A stretch of DNA of 64,000 nt, from contig NZ_JABEND010000009.1 in the NCBI RefSeq assembly GCF_013002705.1, forward strand, positions 1 through 64,000, written 5' to 3'. Positions within the stretch are counted from its first letter, which is position 1. Every line of letters starts with the position of its first letter. The translations under genes and the position numbers were made by a program. The notes beneath the pieces were generated by a model that was not told where the DNA came from, did no database searches, and saw only the letters and a program-made list of their open reading frames with translations. The DNA is from Nakamurella aerolata (GTDB lineage Bacteria > Actinomycetota > Actinomycetes > Mycobacteriales > Nakamurellaceae). Below are positions 1,605-51,623 of the stretch, one piece after another.

Positions 1605-2849
1605 ATGCGTCGTGAATACGGTTCAGGGAGCGTCTACCAGCGCGCCGACGGCCGCTGGATCGGCTCGATCAACGCCGGATACACCCGCTCCGGCACTCGA
1701 CGACGAATCACCATCTCGGCCAAGACCGAGGCGCAGGCCAAGCGCAAGCTCCGCGACAAGCTCCGCGACCTTGACCAGCACGGCACGCCAGAGGCAGCGG
1801 AACGCACCACCGTCAAGGGCTACGCCGATACTTGGCTCGACCGCCAGCAGTCCAGGCTCCGACCATCCACCCACCGCAACTACGCTTCGCACCTGCGGCA
1901 CTGGATCATCCCCACCATCGGACACAAGCAGCTCGCAAAGCTCACGCCAGCGGACGTGCGGGCCGTCGACAAGGCAATCCGCGGCGAGGGGCGGACCTCG
2001 ACCACGGCTCGCGTCATCCAGACTGTGCTGACCAAGATGCTCCGCGACGCGATCGCTGATGGCCACCGCGTCCCTGAGCGGCTGCTGTACCTCGACTCCC
2101 CTGCCCGCGCGGTCAACGACCGCGACGCCATCGACCCCGACCACGCCAAAGCGATCCTGCAGGCCGCCGCGGACCTGGCTGACGGGTCCCGCTGGGTCGC
2201 CGCGCTACTGCAGGGCATGCGCCAAGGCGAATGCCTGGGCCTGACGTGGGATTGCGTCGACACCACCGCCGGAACCATCGACGTGTCCTGGCAGCTGCAG
2301 GCACTCCCCTACCGCGAAAAGTACCGCCCCGCAACAGGTCTGCGCGTTCCCGATGGGTACGAGTACCGGCAGCTCGACGGTTCGCTGTGCCTCGTCCGAC
2401 CCAAGACCGCCCGCGGGCGGCGCATCATCCCGATGGTGCCGTGGATGGCCGCAGCGCTCACCGGCTGGCGACAGCAGGCGCCAGCCTCGCCGCACGGGCT
2501 GGTGTGGCCCCGCCCCGACGGGCGGCCGCAGGTCGCCGCCGACGACCTCGCGGCATGGAAAGCGTTGCAGGACAGGGCGAAAGCCCGACACGGCGCGGGG
2601 CGCCACTACCACCTACACGAAGCGCGCCACACCACGGCGACTTTGTTGATGTCCGCAGGTATCGATGCGTCAGTAGTCACTGCGATCCTGGGCCACTCGT
2701 CGATCGTCACCAGCCGCGGGTATATGCACGCGAACCAGGAGATGGCACGCCAGGCATTGTCGGCTGTGGCCGACAGACTGGGGTTGACAGATGGTCCCCC
2801 GCACCTGCTGGAACAGGCCGGGGGCATAGCCCACTCGGATGAGGAGTGA
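1605..2849 (+). CDS. Tyrosine integrase
   Basis: Catalyses site-specific recombination between phage and the tRNA-Arg attB site. About 414 aa: an N-terminal arm-binding AP2-like region (about 1-55), a SAM-like core-binding domain (about 70-165) and a catalytic domain. Visible catalytic motifs are Arg in GMRQGE (about 206), HEARH (about 338-342), LGHSS (about 362) and the Tyr nucleophile in RGYMH (about 373). ATG 1605 follows the arm-site cluster without a strong Shine-Dalgarno. The last 30-40 residues after EMARQALSAVADRLGL are unusual because nearly the same helix recurs at the end of the next gene (see findings). The stop overlaps the HNH start. Confidence 0.95.
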   Translation: MRREYGSGSVYQRADGRWIGSINAGYTRSGTRRRITISAKTEAQAKRKLRDKLRDLDQHGTPEAAERTTVKGYADTWLDRQQSRLRPSTHRNYASHLRHWIIPTIGHKQLAKLTPADVRAVDKAIRGEGRTSTTARVIQTVLTKMLRDAIADGHRVPERLLYLDSPARAVNDRDAIDPDHAKAILQAAADLADGSRWVAALLQGMRQGECLGLTWDCVDTTAGTIDVSWQLQALPYREKYRPATGLRVPDGYEYRQLDGSLCLVRPKTARGRRIIPMVPWMAAALTGWRQQAPASPHGLVWPRPDGRPQVAADDLAAWKALQDRAKARHGAGRHYHLHEARHTTATLLMSAGIDASVVTAILGHSSIVTSRGYMHANQEMARQALSAVADRLGLTDGPPHLLEQAGGIAHSDEE

Positions 2850-3505
2850 ACGTGAACCAATCTATTTGTGGCGTCGATGGGTGCAATAAACCAACCATTG
2901 CCCGAGGGCTCTGCACCCAGCACTACGACCGCGCCAGGAACGTCGGCGATGTGGAGTTCGGACCGCGCCGCCGCCGCCGTGCCGGCATGACTCATGCGGA
3001 AGTGTTCATGGCGACTCGGAAACACCTTTCCGAGTCAGGTTGTATCGAGTGGCAAGGTCATCGGTCTCGGTACAACTACGGCATCATCCAGAGCAAGACG
3101 TTCGGGTCCCGCAGCGCGCATAGGGTCGCGCTTGAGTTGGCCCTAGGCTTACCCATTCCGGATGACAAGCACGTCTGTCACCGATGCGACAATCCCCCAT
3201 GCGTGAACCCGGTGCACCTATTCGTAGGCGACGACTCGATCAACGTTGCCGACATGATCGCCAAAGGTCGACACGCGCACGGTGAAGGCGCCAGGCAGGC
3301 GAAGCTGAAGGAGGCGGATGTCCGCGACATCCTCGTTCGCTATCGCGCCGGCGGTATCGGTCGCCCTGCGCTCGCTCGCGAGTATGGCGTGTCGCCCGCT
3401 TGCATCCAGAAAATCACCGAGGGTAAGTCCTGGAAGCACGTCTCCACCGAGCTCGCCCGGCAGGCCATGGAGAAGGTCGCCGCGCGGCTCGGGTTGGAAG
3501 GCTAG
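2846..3505 (+). CDS. HNH_3-type endonuclease with integrase-like tail
   Basis: Probable free-standing homing endonuclease. A Cys-rich N-terminus (CGVDGCNKPTIARGLC) precedes an HNH_3 core: GCIEWQG, then AHRVALELALG, then CHRCDNPPCVNPVHL with the HNH metal/catalytic residues. A C-terminal helix-turn-helix-like element (REYGVSPACIQKITEGKSW) follows, as in phage HNH homing enzymes. Such proteins usually end about there; this one continues with ELARQAMEKVAARLGLEG, which matches the integrase C-terminal helix. GTG 2846 overlaps the integrase stop by 4 nt (a second GTG is at 2852). It probably invaded the integrase gene. Confidence 0.88.
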   Translation: MNVNQSICGVDGCNKPTIARGLCTQHYDRARNVGDVEFGPRRRRRAGMTHAEVFMATRKHLSESGCIEWQGHRSRYNYGIIQSKTFGSRSAHRVALELALGLPIPDDKHVCHRCDNPPCVNPVHLFVGDDSINVADMIAKGRHAHGEGARQAKLKEADVRDILVRYRAGGIGRPALAREYGVSPACIQKITEGKSWKHVSTELARQAMEKVAARLGLEG

Positions 3506-3517
3506 GACGTCAGGGTC

Positions 3518-4357
3518 CTACTTCGAGCACTGCACGATGGCATAGTCGCCAGACGACTCGTTCGACGTGACCTGCTCCCCTTCGTACTCGATCGCGCAGC
3601 TGATCTTGCCGCCGCCAGTCGAATGCTGAGCGCTGACCGAGATGAAGTCGTCCGAACCCACGCCCTCCAATGCTTTTGACCAGGGCAAGGAGGCGTCGGA
3701 TTGCTGGCTGATCTGACCCTGCGCGTCCGTGAAGGTAATCATTGCCGTGCCCTCGCCGGAGACCGTGTAGACAAGCTTCCCGGCGTTCTGTTGCTGTTGC
3801 GTCACGTCCTTCTCAGCCGCATCGAGCTTGCTCTGTAGTTCAGGGCACACGTTCTTGACCAGCAGCTTCAGGGCTGTGCGCTCGTCCTTTTTTGCTAGCG
3901 ACCAGTAGGTGTTCCAGTCGATGGTGATACCGAGATCATCGAACGGCTCCGTGCCAGCGCGCAGCCGCTTACACGCAGTCAGAGGGTCGCTGATGTCAAT
4001 TAGTCCACCAGTCATGCTCTCAACTTCTGGCCCTATACCTGCGGCCTTGATCTGTGCGCGATACCCCTCGACGCCATTCTTCTGCGCAGCCTCCGCTGAC
4101 GCCTTCGATGATGCGGCTGCCTTGCTTTTCGATGCGGCTACCGGGTCGTAGGTCACCGTCACGCGTTCGGTCGTCGGTACAGAGACTGTCTCTGTGTCCG
4201 GAGTCTCGGTCGCCGTCGAGATGACTGTCAGCAATCGCGTCGTGCTGATCGTCGTCCGGGCGGTCGATGTGACCGTCTGCGCCGCCGGCGCTGCAGAGCT
4301 GCAGCCCGCAAACAGCATCGTCAGCAGGGCAGCGCCGGCCGCTAACAGTTTTCGCAT
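3518..4357 (-). CDS. MmpS-like lipoprotein
   Basis: Predicted surface lipoprotein of 279 aa. A signal peptide ends in the lipobox LFAGC, giving lipid-anchored Cys19. A Thr/Ser-rich and then Ala/Lys-rich stalk (about 25-95) precedes a globular region. The C-terminus (about 195-279: KLVYTVSGEGTA, SLPWSKAL, GGGKISCAIEYEG, YAIVQCSK) has the beta-sandwich pattern of MmpS transport-accessory proteins, including two Cys that can pair. It ends 13 nt from the convergent HNH gene and lies at the far end of the leftward immunity block. This suggests expression in the lysogen, so host-surface modification or exclusion of other phages is a reasonable guess. Confidence 0.8.
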   Translation of the reverse strand: MRKLLAAGAALLTMLFAGCSSAAPAAQTVTSTARTTISTTRLLTVISTATETPDTETVSVPTTERVTVTYDPVAASKSKAAASSKASAEAAQKNGVEGYRAQIKAAGIGPEVESMTGGLIDISDPLTACKRLRAGTEPFDDLGITIDWNTYWSLAKKDERTALKLLVKNVCPELQSKLDAAEKDVTQQQQNAGKLVYTVSGEGTAMITFTDAQGQISQQSDASLPWSKALEGVGSDDFISVSAQHSTGGGKISCAIEYEGEQVTSNESSGDYAIVQCSK

Positions 4358-4417
4358 CGGGATTCTCCCTCGGGGTAGCGCGCCGATTCGGCGCGAGATG
4401 GATCGAATATTGGCAGA

Positions 4418-4636
4418 TCAGCGGCGTGCGCGCCAGGCCGCTCGGGACTGCATCAGTCTGCGGAGCCGGGCGGCGGTGGCCGGGTGGGCGGCGATCGCCG
4501 CCGGGTCGTCGAGCTCGGCCAGCAGCTGCTGGTAGTAACGGACCGGCGACAAGCCGAGGTCGTCGCGGATCGCGGCCTCTTTGGCGCCGGCATGCCGCCA
4601 GGGGCGCTCCTCGAACGCGAGCAGGTGGCCGGTCAC
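4418..4636 (-). CDS. DUF3263 family small protein
   Basis: 72 aa with the DUF3263 signature: LLAFEERPWRHAGAKEAAI, then a helix and LSPVRYYQQLL, then ARLRRLMQSR. The family is small, helical, actinobacterial and of unknown role, with an HTH-like look. GTG 4636 overlaps the protease stop (GTGA), so it is translationally coupled to it. Confidence 0.75.
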   Translation of the reverse strand: MTGHLLAFEERPWRHAGAKEAAIRDDLGLSPVRYYQQLLAELDDPAAIAAHPATAARLRRLMQSRAAWRARR

Positions 4637-5052
4637 GAGGTCATCCAGTGGTGCTCGGCGGCGTCCCGCACCGCGGTGGCCTCGGCGGGGGTGAGGTTCT
4701 GTAGGCGGGCGAGCGCGGTGTCGAGGTCGACCCAGCAGGCGTCGGCGACCTCGTGCACATCGAGGGACCAGCGCACCGCAGTGATCAACTCGTCGAGGCC
4801 GATCAGCCGCCGCGCGGCCTCCCGGCGCACGTCCGCCTCGGCGGCAGGTGAGACCCGGCCGCAGGTCTCGCCGCGCTCGTGGTGGATCAGCTCGTGGGTG
4901 ATGGTGCAGCGCCGCTCGGGCTGCAGCTGGCCGGCGTCCATCAGGACGGTGCGGCCCTCGATGACGCCGAGCACATCGATGGGCAGGTCGGGACGCCAGA
5001 CGACGTCGATCTCGGGGCGGTGGCGCAGCTCGCGCCAGGGGTGAAAGGTCAT
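4633..5052 (-). CDS. ImmA/IrrE-like metallopeptidase
   Basis: 139 aa with the zinc protease motif HELIHHERG (HExxH) at about residues 51-55. The N-terminus MTFHPWRELRHRPEIDVVW is typical of short ImmA-like proteins of actinophages, which decides ATG 5052 over the upstream TTG 5082. ImmA of ICEBs1 cleaves its element's repressor to trigger induction, and by analogy this may act on the repressor at 6404-7117 or on HigA. It lies 86 nt after the chaperone gene in the same direction and is coupled to the DUF3263 gene. Confidence 0.85.
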   Translation of the reverse strand: MTFHPWRELRHRPEIDVVWRPDLPIDVLGVIEGRTVLMDAGQLQPERRCTITHELIHHERGETCGRVSPAAEADVRREAARRLIGLDELITAVRWSLDVHEVADACWVDLDTALARLQNLTPAEATAVRDAAEHHWMTS

Positions 5053-5138
5053 GCGCCGAAGCCTCGGGTCGCGCACCGACAATCACACGCGTGTTATTCG
5101 GGACGAACTGGACAGAAGTTGCGCGCGCTGCGCGAGAT

Positions 5139-5588
5139 TCACTCGTTCGAGGGAGGGCCGGCTTCCTCGCCCTGGTCGGCGGCTTCCTCGTCCTCGATGA
5201 ACTCGAACCGAGGGAGCAGCAGGGGCGGCCTGAGTTGAAGGTCGGCCGATAGTGACGCGACCTTGGCTCGGATGAACGGCCATGCGTCATGCACACCGAC
5301 CTCCTCCGCGATCTGGCGCAGAACCGAGGGGTCTGAGGGAAACGGTTGCTCGCCGTCTTCGCCCCTGAGTACGTAGCGCAGCTCGAGTTCCACGTCGAAC
5401 TCGGCGGATTCGGTGCTGGCCAGGAATGTGAATCGGAACCCTCCGAGCGCCTCGTCGGTGCCGATGGCCAAGTTCATCTGGGTCATGACCTTCCCCTCGA
5501 ACTCGGGGTCGGACCGCTTCTCTGCGTGCACTCGTCGGAAGACGGCGCGCTTGAGATCGAGTTGCCCCGTGAGGCTCCACTCGGCCAT
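5139..5588 (-). CDS. SecB-like TAC chaperone
   Basis: 149 aa, acidic and close in length to E. coli SecB (155 aa). It has the SecB-type antiparallel strand pattern: FRFTFLASTES, then FDVELELRYVL, then a proline-rich PPLLLPRFEFIED end. Its ATG shares one base with the HigA stop (TGATG). The gene order toxin-antitoxin-SecB is that of the mycobacterial TAC systems, where the chaperone folds and protects an unstable HigA. Homology to SecB is judged from pattern and context only; the context makes the call fairly firm. Confidence 0.8.
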   Translation of the reverse strand: MAEWSLTGQLDLKRAVFRRVHAEKRSDPEFEGKVMTQMNLAIGTDEALGGFRFTFLASTESAEFDVELELRYVLRGEDGEQPFPSDPSVLRQIAEEVGVHDAWPFIRAKVASLSADLQLRPPLLLPRFEFIEDEEAADQGEEAGPPSNE

Positions 5589-5998
5589 CAGTAGGCCACG
5601 CGCCCCGTCGAGATGGGCGACATGAAGGTCCCCTCGTCCGGAACGTCCTCATCGTCGCTCTGGATGTACACCGCCACAGTGTGGACGGTCGCCCAAGATG
5701 TAGGCGTGCATGATCCCGGCTTCCGAACTGCCGGCATCAAAGGCAAGCGAGCACCGACGGCCCGGGCGTAGCGCTGAAGCGTGTCGATCCGGGGGTTGCT
5801 GCCCATCCTCTCGATGTCAGATACCACCGACTGCGAGCGGGCGCCCATCCGGTGCGCGACATCCTGTTGAGTGAGGCGTTGGTCGGTCCGCAGAGTGCGG
5901 AGCGCGTCAACGCACCGCTGGTAGTCCTCGGCATCCTCCACGGCGTCTCGAACCTCGGGGTCATCGACACCGAGGCCCAGCGCGTCGAAGGCGGTCAT
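5588..5998 (-). CDS. HigA-type antitoxin with C-terminal extension
   Basis: 136 aa. The XRE helix-turn-helix spans about 30-90 (LRTDQRLTQQDVAHRMG, SQSVVSDIERMGSNPRIDTL), followed by an extension of about 45 residues ending in TFMSPISTGRVAY. HigA antitoxins of ordinary two-gene systems lack this tail; in TAC systems a tail of this sort (chaperone-addiction region) binds the SecB-like partner. ATG 5998 lies 23 nt after a perfect palindrome that may be its operator. It should bind and neutralise the HigB-like toxin and repress the operon. Confidence 0.85.
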   Translation of the reverse strand: MTAFDALGLGVDDPEVRDAVEDAEDYQRCVDALRTLRTDQRLTQQDVAHRMGARSQSVVSDIERMGSNPRIDTLQRYARAVGARLPLMPAVRKPGSCTPTSWATVHTVAVYIQSDDEDVPDEGTFMSPISTGRVAY

Positions 5999-6020
5999 CT
6001 CGCGGGTTCCTTCCACTCGC

Positions 6021-6049
6021 CCAGCGTATCGGTAAAACCGATACGCTGG
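6021..6049. promoter_or_regulatory. 29-bp perfect palindrome, likely HigA operator
   Basis: CCAGCGTATCGGT, AAA, then the exact reverse complement. It lies in the 58-nt gap between the toxin stop and the antitoxin start. No T-run follows on either strand, so a protein-binding operator is more likely than a terminator. Its position suggests a separate promoter for antitoxin and chaperone. Confidence 0.7.
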
Positions 6050-6056
6050 CACCTCG

Positions 6057-6407
6057 TCAGCAGTCCTGACTCCACGTGTTGAGTCGCCCCTGGGCCGTCT
6101 CGATCCAGCCCGTTGGGGTGGTGCGGGACTTCTTCTTTTGGTACGACAGCGCCAGTAGGACTGCTTGGCCCTTGACCTTGGCGTAGAGGACTCGCAGGTA
6201 GACGCCGTCTGTTGCTGACCGGACCTCGCAGATCTCGCCACGCAGGTGCTTAACGTCGCCAGGATGCGTTGCGCCGTTTCTGACGCGTTCCATCACGAAG
6301 GCCAGCCGAGCGAGCGCAGGTTCGGTCACCGACCGGCGTAACCTGTCGCTCTCGCGCTGGGCTGATGGGTGATTCACCCACCGGAGATTCTCCGCCCTGT
6401 CGCTCAC
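6057..6407 (-). CDS. HigB-type toxin (Gp49-like)
   Basis: 116 aa. The RelE/HigB-fold signature is in the second half: VYLRVLYAKVKGQAVLLALS followed by YQKKKSRTTPTGWIETAQGRL, as in phage-derived Gp49-like toxins. The family are ribosome-dependent mRNA endonucleases. GTG 6407 overlaps the repressor stop by 4 nt (GTGA), so toxin translation is coupled to that of the repressor. The toxin precedes the antitoxin, the usual higBA order. Confidence 0.87.
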   Translation of the reverse strand: MSDRAENLRWVNHPSAQRESDRLRRSVTEPALARLAFVMERVRNGATHPGDVKHLRGEICEVRSATDGVYLRVLYAKVKGQAVLLALSYQKKKSRTTPTGWIETAQGRLNTWSQDC

Positions 6408-7117
6408 CCCTCGTCCTCCGGCGCCTGCTGATCCGGCCGCGACCGCCGGCCCGGGTCCACCCGGCGGGCGGCCTGGTCCTGCGCCCGGCGGACCATCGCG
6501 TCGATCCGCGCCTGCTCCTCCTCGAACGACTCCAGGGGCTCGTGCGGGCCGCGCCGGCCCTGCTTGGTGCGGCGGCTGAGCTGCGTCACCCCCGGCGGTG
6601 TCGTGTCCGCACCTATGGGGGGCGGTCCGCCCTCGCCGCCGCCTGCGCTGCGGTGCTCCGCGCTGCGCGTTTCATCAGCCAGCGGCAGTTCGGCTTCGAG
6701 TGCCGCGCGATCAAGATTTCCCCGCACATGTCGAGCAATGAACGAGTAGTCGCTGTCGAGCCAACGGCGAGCGTCCTTCACCATGGCCAATAGGGCACGC
6801 TTCGTCTGCACTGGCAGGGTGGCGTCTCGCAGGATCGCCTGCTCAACCGAGAGCGGAGGATCGCCCGACGGGAGCCCAGCTGACTCAAGTGCGGCCCGGA
6901 GCACATCGCGAATCGGCAGCTGCAGTCCGTCGGCCAGCGCCTGGATCTTCGCGGGAACGATCGTCGAGACGCCGGCCGTGCGGATGTCACTGATAGTGCT
7001 CTTGCTCATCTGGTGGCCCGCGCTTCGAGCCTGAGCAACGATCCGAGTGTCCGACCATCGATTGGCCTCCTTCGTCTCGTCGATCAGGCGGGCGAGCGGG
7101 TTGCTCGCTGTCGTCAT
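6404..7117 (-). CDS. Putative immunity repressor
   Basis: 237 aa. The N-terminal helix-turn-helix (about 8-80; MSKSTISDIRTAG is the likely recognition helix) is followed by a helical middle and a charged, disordered C-terminus with many Arg and Glu (about 160-237). ATG 7117 is preceded by GGAGGATC. It is divergent from the Cro-like gene across a 268-bp control region, the classic repressor/cro layout. It has no LexA-like autocleavage motif, consistent with control by antirepressor or the ImmA-like protease. It is the first gene of the operon continuing into higB, higA and secB. Confidence 0.8.
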   Translation of the reverse strand: MTTASNPLARLIDETKEANRWSDTRIVAQARSAGHQMSKSTISDIRTAGVSTIVPAKIQALADGLQLPIRDVLRAALESAGLPSGDPPLSVEQAILRDATLPVQTKRALLAMVKDARRWLDSDYSFIARHVRGNLDRAALEAELPLADETRSAEHRSAGGGEGGPPPIGADTTPPGVTQLSRRTKQGRRGPHEPLESFEEEQARIDAMVRRAQDQAARRVDPGRRSRPDQQAPEDEG

Positions 7118-7385
7118 GGGTCGATCCTCCGAGAGCAAGAGTGGCTGGCGCAAGCGGCCGGACACGTCGAACGGTTCGACCTGGACACTACGCGCGGACA
7201 CCAAGAGGCCGGCTTCGAAGGGGCGGCGTTTATGCAGGTCATTTGCCATCTGCAGAACTACATCCGTGTGACTGCTTGCGCACGCGGACACTAGGGGTGT
7301 ACAAAGTGATCGAGATTGCTGGACACTTTGACCGGAAAGGGCTACCGTGGTGACACTCCGCCGAACACTTGGAAGGAGGCTCTGG
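7118..7385. promoter_or_regulatory. Divergent immunity control region with GGACACT repeats
   Basis: The intergenic region between repressor and Cro-like genes has repeated GGACAC(T) motifs in one orientation at 7160, 7183, 7196, 7286 and 7321, with near matches at 7351 (TGACACT) and 7363 (GAACACT). A possible rightward promoter is TTGCGC (7276-7281) with TACAAA (7300-7305) at 18-bp spacing; the 7286 repeat lies between the two boxes. These are good candidates for operators of the repressor and Cro. Confidence 0.55.
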
Positions 7386-7643
7386 ATGCAAGTCCGAGAC
7401 CTCAAGAAGCTCAGGACCCTGGTGGCCATCCAGGAGCTGAGTCACCGAGATATCGCCGATGCCATGGGTTGGCGGTCTCACAGCTACGTGAGTCGGCTGC
7501 TCCGCGGGGAGGTCCGCTCGGTTCAGGGCGAGACCGCCCTAGCTCTCGCAAAGCTGCTCGGCTGCCCCGTCGATGACCTTTTTTTGACCAAGATGGACGG
7601 AAATGTCGATCGGTCCGTTCGAGCTAGCCGGAGGAGCGCCTGA
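7386..7643 (+). CDS. Cro-like HTH protein
   Basis: 85 aa consisting mostly of an XRE-type helix-turn-helix: LSHRDIADAMG, then SHSYVSRLLRGEVRSVQ, then ALALAKLLGCPVDDLF. GGAGG at 7375-7379 supports ATG 7386 over an upstream GTG in frame. As first gene of the rightward transcript opposite the repressor it is the natural Cro counterpart. Its stop overlaps the antirepressor start. Confidence 0.8.
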   Translation: MQVRDLKKLRTLVAIQELSHRDIADAMGWRSHSYVSRLLRGEVRSVQGETALALAKLLGCPVDDLFLTKMDGNVDRSVRASRRSA

Positions 7644-8509
7644 TGACTGAGGTCACTTGCGGCAACGACAGCGGGCCTTCGCCCTTCGATGCGATCCGCC
7701 AAGTCCATGCAGACGGCACCGAGTTTTGGTCCGCCCGCGATCTGATGCCGTTGCTCGGCTACGACAAGTGGGAGCGGTTCGCCGACGCAATCGAGCGCGC
7801 AATTGCATCGATGACGGCGCAGGGTCACGACCCGCAGGTGGAAGCTTCCCGGCTCCGGGAACCTTTCGGCCGGACCAACCAGATGGGCGAAAACTTCCAC
7901 CTGAGCCGGTTCGGCGCCTACCTGGTGGCTATGAACGGCGACCCTCGTAAGCCGGAGGTTGCCGCCGCGCAGGCGTACTTTGCTATCCGTACCCGCCACG
8001 CCGAAACGCAGCTCCCGGAGCTGACGCCGGAGTTGCTCATGGCGAAGGCGCTCAAGGTTGCCGACGCAACTATCCAGCGCACCGCGGCGCAGCTGGCCCA
8101 AGCCGAGTCCGAGGTTGCCGAGCTCAAACCGCGAGCGATCGTGGCCGACCGGATGCTTGACGCCTCCGGCGACCTCTCCATCGCTGATGCTGCCAAGGAG
8201 CTGTGCCGCGCCGGCCTCACCGACTGTGGCGAGCGACGGCTCTTCAAGGCACTCGAGACCCGGCGGTGGATCTACCGCGGCAAGGGCGACGGGAAGTGGC
8301 GGGTGTACCAGTCCGCGATCGAGGCCGGCTACATGTCGGTACTGCCGCAGTCCCACTACCACCCGAAGACCGGCGAGCTTGTCCTCGACGTGCCGCAGCC
8401 GCGGATCACACCGAAGGGCGTGCAGCGGTACTTGCTCGAGCACGGCGTCGCCGAGTACCAGATCGCCCTCCCGGACGTGTTCGAGCCAGCGATCGGCGGT
8501 CAGTCATGA
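7643..8509 (+). CDS. Phage antirepressor (DinD/BRO-like N-terminus, KilAC-like C-terminus)
   Basis: 288 aa. The N-terminal domain (about 25-120) contains FWSARDLMPLLGYDKWERF and GAYLVAMNGDPRKPEV, the DinD/BRO-type antirepressor fold. A coiled linker (about 128-160) leads to an ANT/KilAC-type DNA-binding domain (about 165-260: SIADAAKELCRAGL, ERRLFKALETRRWIYR, TPKGVQRYL). Such proteins lift repression and favour lytic growth. ATG 7643 shares one base with the cro stop. Confidence 0.88.
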   Translation: MTEVTCGNDSGPSPFDAIRQVHADGTEFWSARDLMPLLGYDKWERFADAIERAIASMTAQGHDPQVEASRLREPFGRTNQMGENFHLSRFGAYLVAMNGDPRKPEVAAAQAYFAIRTRHAETQLPELTPELLMAKALKVADATIQRTAAQLAQAESEVAELKPRAIVADRMLDASGDLSIADAAKELCRAGLTDCGERRLFKALETRRWIYRGKGDGKWRVYQSAIEAGYMSVLPQSHYHPKTGELVLDVPQPRITPKGVQRYLLEHGVAEYQIALPDVFEPAIGGQS

Positions 8510-51547: not shown

Positions 51548-51592
51548 GAGCGCGCCCGGAGGGATTCGAACCCCCAACCTTCTGATCCGTAG
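51548..51592. other. attR core
   Basis: Identical to 1412-1456. Here the core is joined to the tRNA 5' half, so the phage copy restores a complete tRNA-Arg gene. Confidence 0.93.
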
Positions 51593-51623
51593 TCAGATGC
51601 TCTATCCGTTGAGCTACGGGCGC
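51551..51623 (-). tRNA. tRNA-Arg(ACG)
   Basis: 73 nt. The acceptor stem GCGCCCG/CGGGCGC, D-arm TAGCTCAACGGATAGAGC, anticodon loop CTACGGA (ACG) and T-arm GGTTCGAATCC are all present. CCA is not encoded. This is the prophage integration site. Confidence 0.95.

Follow-up and report, generated by a model that had tools for sequence, protein, structure and literature searches.

A predicted HigB-HigA-SecB toxin-antitoxin-chaperone module between repressor and ImmA in a Nakamurella aerolata prophage

Organization of the locus

The stretch of DNA analysed here (the window) comprises 64,000 nucleotides of Nakamurella aerolata (contig NZ_JABEND010000009.1, positions 1 to 64,000) and carries a 50.1-kb prophage, integrated in a tRNA-Arg gene, whose ends are marked by perfect 45-bp attachment repeats and whose nearest related phages are Gordonia phages. 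On the minus strand, at 4418-7117, six genes follow one another; the second to fourth, HigB, HigA and a 149-residue protein, had been proposed in a preliminary description to form a toxin-antitoxin-chaperone (TAC) module. The six genes, in the order of their transcription, are:

6404-7117, minus strand: immunity repressor, 237 residues, first gene of the lysogenic operon, similar to the Kamaru repressor and divergent from a cro-like gene
6057-6407, minus strand: HigB toxin, 116 residues, GTG start (PF05973, 3e-7; HigB1 of Mycobacterium tuberculosis, 5e-5; predicted fold)
5588-5998, minus strand: HigA antitoxin, 136 residues, HTH_3 domain (9.6e-9) followed by a C-terminal tail
5139-5588, minus strand: predicted SecB-like TAC chaperone, 149 residues (AlphaFold/Foldseek and profile)
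4633-5082, minus strand: ImmA/IrrE metalloprotease (phrog_87, 5.2e-18), with the zinc motif HExxH present as HELIHHE
4418-4636, minus strand: small DNA-binding-like protein with DUF3263, at the end of the run (PF11662, 8.3e-24)

The assignment of the first gene is based on residues 5-117, which share 43% identity (E 4e-13) with a protein of Gordonia phage Kamaru annotated as immunity repressor. Repressor, HigB, HigA with its tail and the SecB-like protein lie in the order given in the preliminary description, and both overlaps named there are present: the start of HigB overlaps the end of the repressor gene in GTGA, and that of the 149-residue protein overlaps the end of HigA in TGATG. The first of these overlaps supports the claim that the toxin is translationally tied to the immunity repressor, and because of it HigB would be translated on the repressor message. 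The ImmA-like protease and the DUF3263 protein follow the module, as described. For ImmA, the ATG at 5052 is a likelier start than the end of the frame at 5082; its frame overlaps that of the DUF3263 protein, whose likely start is the GTG at 4636.

The toxin

Among PDB sequences, the window toxin matched only HigB1 of M. tuberculosis (Mtb), the TAC toxin (5e-5). Consistently, a Foldseek search with its structural model (pLDDT 82.9) gave Rv1955 (HigB1) as the best match, with a TM-score of 0.73. HigB cuts mRNA on ribosomes; in Mtb HigB1, K58, R68, R77 and K95 are among the residues required for toxicity, and E66 lies in the catalytic pocket (PMC9098466). In our alignment, K53, E61, R63 and R72 of the window toxin correspond to Mtb K58, E66, R68 and R77. 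Based on the model and the alignment, the window toxin is a RelE/HigB-fold toxin with most catalytic residues kept.

The SecB-like chaperone

The 149-residue protein had no match in Pfam, in PHROG or in a single-sequence search of PDB. Its AlphaFold model, built on four sequences (pLDDT 77.8), was compared with known structures using Foldseek. The best matches were four Rv1957 chains (1.3e-6 to 2.2e-5; best probability 1.00), followed by E. coli SecB (1e-4), and Rv1957 and SecB ranked above every hotdog protein. The preliminary description had suggested such a structure-based search of 5139-5588 as a check, and the SecB fold that it expected was obtained. Profile searches pointed in the same direction. 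A four-member chaperone profile had Rv1957 as its sole PDB match (E 0.012), and a seven-member profile, which included closer Rv1957 relatives, matched Rv1957 at 2.3e-21. A profile made only from chromosomal TAC chaperones recovered the 149-residue open reading frame at 6e-6, above 2109 background open reading frames and above shuffled sequences. According to the model, then, this protein has a SecB fold. The proposed TAC reading of the locus is supported by this fold, by the HigB1-like fold of the toxin and by the gene order.

The host genome, searched with the chaperone, holds one copy. When phages, plasmids, viral contigs and genome contigs were searched with the chaperone or the toxin as a single sequence, the prophage itself was the only match; these negatives are misleading, since profile, fold and neighbour searches did retrieve related phage proteins.

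The antitoxin and its tail

The window HigA is 44% identical to the HigA of a chromosomal TAC (locus L013). Its tail of approximately 45 residues (about 90-136; 5588-5731) has the sequence PTSWATVHTVAVY and contains W102 and Y111. In Mtb, the antitoxin needs the chaperone to fold and to escape proteolysis (PMC5105189), and its tail residues W108, R110 and Y114 bind the chaperone (PMC6377645; PMC5105189). The alignment showed an aromatic residue (Trp, Phe or Tyr) at the start of the tail in all SecB-paired HigA proteins and none in the HigA proteins of loci L015 and L016, a comparison of small numbers. The spacing between the two aromatic residues is 9 in the window HigA (W102-Y111) versus 6 in Mtb (W108-Y114); sequences of the chaperone addiction region (ChAD), which such a tail carries in TAC antitoxins, are not conserved (PMC5105189).

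A palindrome between toxin and antitoxin

The gap between higB and higA contains one further element:

6021-6049: perfect palindrome with 13-bp arms, the longest perfect inverted repeat in the 64-kb window

The palindrome reads CCAGCGTATCGGT-TTT-ACCGATACGCTGG, and no inverted repeat as long as this one appeared in 10 shuffles. The half-site [AG]CCGATA was found in five of the seven higB-higA gaps compared (those of chromosomal HigBA relatives and of the window), with an optimistic P of about 4e-8. In the Gordonia phages Blueberry and Suerte, the same gap carries another perfect palindrome, GTGTTGCA-N5-TGCAACAC. A scan of 4380-7660 for the sigma-70 promoter consensus found none.

Given its conserved half-site and its place between the toxin and antitoxin genes, the palindrome at 6021-6049 is probably a HigA operator and the promoter region of higA-secB. 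HigA and the chaperone would then probably have their own autoregulated promoter, while the toxin would depend on the repressor message. The earlier proposal that the whole set shares one transcript is thus retained for the toxin, which is coupled to the repressor, but probably not for higA-secB. The promoter that HigA represses in Mtb precedes the entire operon (PMC3912914).

Comparison with chromosomal relatives and known TAC systems

Among 399 genomes of the order, a HigB of this kind (E 1e-5) was present in only two others, and in both it is followed by HigA and a SecB-like gene. A search with the wider HigB class gave four more loci (L015 to L018), two of which, L017 and L018, have Rv1957-like chaperones. 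The adjacent toxin, antitoxin and SecB-like genes of the window recur in the same order in L013, L014, L017 and L018. In L015 and L016, from two other actinobacterial genomes, the third gene after HigB-HigA is not SecB-like, and the two third genes resemble each other (LGAGWSVTG / VVGFNQN, by eye). These loci, whose HigA tails lack the aromatic residue, are possibly another kind of tripartite HigBA system.

The window module shares with the Mtb TAC (Rv1955-Rv1956-Rv1957) the toxin-antitoxin-chaperone order and a HigA tail with Trp and Tyr, and Rv1955 and Rv1957 are the best PDB fold matches of its toxin and chaperone. It differs in being carried on a prophage and coupled to a phage repressor, in the position of the probable HigA operator, which lies between higB and higA rather than upstream of the operon as in Mtb, and in its shorter chaperone, which is only 17-19% identical.

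Two E. coli systems, CmdTAC and MqsRAC, have been proven to defend against phages, and their protection is lost when the chaperone is in excess (PMC9519451; PMC11618068). In CmdTAC, capture of the chaperone CmdC by a phage capsid protein leads to degradation of the antitoxin and release of the toxin (PMC11618068; PMC9519451). The window module has the same TAC logic with a SecB-like chaperone, whereas the toxins of the E. coli systems (an ADP-ribosyltransferase and MqsR, respectively) and their antitoxins are unrelated to HigB-HigA; moreover, neither system is known to be linked to a phage repressor as the window module is. Membership of the CmdTAC family was rejected, the window toxin having the HigB fold and not that of the ADP-ribosyltransferase CmdT. 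Of the two likenesses drawn in the preliminary description, the one to mycobacterial TACs stands as to toxin type, which is that of Mtb HigBA-SecB, whereas CmdTAC is an analogue in function alone.

A variable cargo slot in Gordonia phages

We inspected what lies between the repressor and ImmA in 22 Gordonia phages, a non-random sample in which several phages were found by mutual homology. The stretch from the repressor to ImmA-DUF3263 is a cargo slot whose contents vary. Budski, Utz and Malachai have nothing in it. In CarolAnn it holds gp44/gp43 (RexAB-like), for which phage exclusion and co-transcription with the repressor have been proven (PMC6426606). Sidious has RexA/RexB in the slot, Kamaru a toxin with a colicin-type Cytotoxic domain, BaxterFox the candidate defence gene PDC-M41A, MichaelScott a DUF3800 gene and Ruthy a gene with a weak AbiJ-like match; other genes occupy it in Malibo, Vasanti, ThankyouJordi, Dorito and Kuwabara. 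The seven loci compared all show an overlap of 4 to 8 nt between the repressor stop and the first cargo gene. The window module is placed as the CarolAnn genes are, between repressor and metalloprotease and with its start overlapping the repressor gene, but its proteins are unrelated to gp43 and gp44, which form no toxin-antitoxin-chaperone set.

TAC-like modules, none of them annotated as TAC, occupy the slot in JuJu, BeeGee, Ecliptus, Gambino, Blueberry, Horus, Suerte and Agueybana, the last with two. With the chaperone profile, Blueberry/Gambino, Suerte, Horus and Agueybana gave strong matches (1e-22 to 1e-27), and the second Agueybana module gave a moderate one (6e-5). For JuJu the profile gave 0.0085, and a fold match (1.1e-4) was obtained to A0A516KR42, a JuJu protein of 182 residues, the same length as gp44. 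The profile was weak for Ecliptus (0.07) and BeeGee (0.26), whose proteins are related to each other (1e-16) and whose gene order is the same. These modules share with the window module the slot, the gene order and a third gene that is SecB-like by profile or fold; they differ in toxins and antitoxins that are strongly diverged or of other types.

Several of these loci merit separate mention. In Agueybana (L037, 2062-5031), two SecB-containing toxin-antitoxin-like modules stand in tandem, with SecB-like genes ending at 3435 and 5031; their toxin-antitoxin pairs differ, and the first toxin-like frame, directly after the repressor, is unannotated. In Horus (L036, 2036-3441) and in locus L003, SecB-like chaperones, strong by profile, follow a toxin-antitoxin-like pair unrelated to HigBA. 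A likeness to HicAB was seen by eye in Horus gp53/gp52 and in the first Agueybana pair (HicA-like); Pfam gave no confirmation of it. In BeeGee (L025, 2887-3363), gp47 is annotated from 3154, and a GTG at 2887 that overlaps the repressor stop would yield a longer HigB-like protein. In Blueberry (L035, 2798-4920), gp41 is labelled immunity repressor in KU998236, but it is the antitoxin, HigA-like, of the TAC-like module; by position, the repressor is gp43 (hypothetical), which affects the reading of the published lysogen RNA-seq.

ImmA, DUF3263 and neighbouring genes

Relatives of ImmA were found in 264 phage records. ImmA-DUF3263 adjoins the repressor also where the slot is empty (Utz, Malachai, Budski) or filled with unrelated cargo. 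Since its presence does not depend on the cargo, the pair is most likely part of the phage switch or induction circuit and not of the TAC. In ICEBs1, ImmA acts with ImmR in the induction circuit. The earlier suggestion that the protease might act on the antitoxin is unsupported for the same reason; an action of ImmA on HigA, considered as a candidate, is possible, has no support and was set aside.

The other features noted in the prophage are:

1412-1456: left attachment repeat, 45 bp, a perfect match to 51548-51592
51548-51592: right attachment repeat, in the 3' part of tRNA-Arg(acg) (51550-51623)
1605-2849, plus strand: tyrosine integrase (PF00589, 1.1e-18; phrog_1, 6.4e-66)
7386-7643, plus strand: cro-like helix-turn-helix protein, divergent from the repressor (HTH_31, 3.8e-8)
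7643-8509, plus strand: antirepressor with Bro-N and KilAC domains (PF03374, 3.8e-22; PF02498, 9e-8)

The repressor-cro intergenic region (7183-7333) contains three copies of GGACACT and a CAAAGTG / CACTTTG inverted repeat, which are likely repressor operators. On the other side, a protein resembling lipoproteins, which matches Mycobact_memb weakly (PF05423, 1.6e-4), is encoded on the minus strand at 3518-4357, adjoining the lysogenic operon; it is a possible lysogenic conversion or exclusion gene.

Interpretation of the module

We consider it moderately probable that the module is a lysogen-expressed HigB-HigA-SecB TAC, inserted as cargo between the repressor and ImmA-DUF3263, that excludes other phages. 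In the lysogen, the toxin would be translated on the repressor message, and HigA and the chaperone would also be made from the internal promoter, repressed by HigA at 6021-6049. HigB would act as a ribosome-dependent mRNA nuclease, kept inactive as long as the SecB-like protein binds the HigA tail, folds HigA and shields it from proteolysis. Proteins of an incoming phage could draw the chaperone off, whereupon HigA would be lost, HigB would stop translation and the infection would abort. Of this reading, the genes, the folds, most HigB catalytic residues, the gene order, the overlaps, the palindrome and the recurrence of such modules in the slot were shown here. Exclusion of other phages, raised only as a possibility in the preliminary description, has become likelier, since in CarolAnn the proven gp43/gp44 defence occupies this slot and is transcribed together with its repressor, but for the module itself it is deduced from this parallel.

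Several points weigh against this interpretation. The counterpart of Mtb K95 is uncertain, as K95 aligns to Q90 of the window toxin, with lysines 91-93 adjacent. The half-site motif was picked by eye after inspection, which makes its P value optimistic, and when palindromes were tested gap by gap against shuffles, those of gaps other than the window and L014 were individually weak (combined P 0.03), leaving the shared half-site as the one strong signal. The regulatory role of the palindrome is a probable one. A Blueberry lysogen excludes many heterotypic phages (Table 1, PMC6426606), which is compatible with a TAC effect but may stem from its repressor or from other genes; furthermore, the prophage-expressed genes of Blueberry were stated not to be co-expressed with the repressor, the gene taken as repressor being ambiguous in the text (PMC6426606). 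Finally, we infer from the features described above that the module is expressed in the lysogen, that it depends on the chaperone, that there is an internal promoter, and how the module is triggered and excludes phages.

An unlikely alternative is that the TAC is a prophage addiction module: upon loss of the prophage, the labile antitoxin and its chaperone would disappear and the remaining HigB would arrest the cells, defence being secondary. Type II toxin-antitoxin modules generally stabilise mobile elements, and this one is carried by a prophage that can excise, its attachment repeats being intact, and would be expressed, if at all, with the repressor. Nevertheless, the slot is empty in several temperate phages with stable lysogens (Utz; PMC6426606), and elsewhere it holds exclusion genes and not toxin-antitoxin modules alone (CarolAnn, BaxterFox, Sidious).

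It is still less probable that the module mainly tunes the phage's own lysis-lysogeny switch, with HigA or HigB setting repressor level, induction or lysogen growth and with ImmA involved. The translational overlap with the repressor in all seven loci, the DNA-binding nature of HigA and the position of ImmA next in line are consistent with such a role, whereas Utz, Malachai and Budski have repressor, ImmA and DUF3263 without a module, which is thus dispensable for the switch, and the palindrome lies in the higB-higA gap and not in the repressor-cro region.

That the 149-residue protein is no TAC chaperone but an unrelated gene beside an ordinary HigBA pair is very improbable: the lack of a Pfam match, the moderate-confidence model from four sequences and the different third gene of the L015 and L016 operons would agree with it, but the Foldseek ranking over hotdog proteins, the recovery by the chromosomal chaperone profile and the tail aromatic shared with other SecB-paired HigA proteins and absent in the two non-SecB ones argue for a chaperone.

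Implications

The triggering and purpose of TAC systems have been open questions since the Mtb system was found, and CmdTAC gave one answer in E. coli. What is new here is a HigB-type TAC of the Mtb kind in a phage lysogenic operon, coupled to the repressor, in a slot with proven (CarolAnn) and candidate defence genes. Tentatively, and with somewhat more doubt than belief, we propose that the immunity operon of temperate actinobacterial phages has a standard swap-in slot, entered many times by SecB-dependent TACs of several unrelated sequence types. With the toxin tied to translation of the repressor, and antitoxin and chaperone under an autoregulated promoter of their own, such modules would be armed only in lysogeny, toxin synthesis would stop upon the phage's own induction, and the drawing off of the chaperone by incoming phages would be the trigger. 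The question of trigger and purpose can be tested directly with existing strains: for at least one phage whose slot carries a TAC-like module, Blueberry, lysogens, RNA-seq and a plating table have been published, and genetic methods are in place for Gordonia terrae (PMC6426606). The slot also offers a simple rule for locating further exclusion genes in the many phages whose cargo genes carry no annotation beyond hypothetical.

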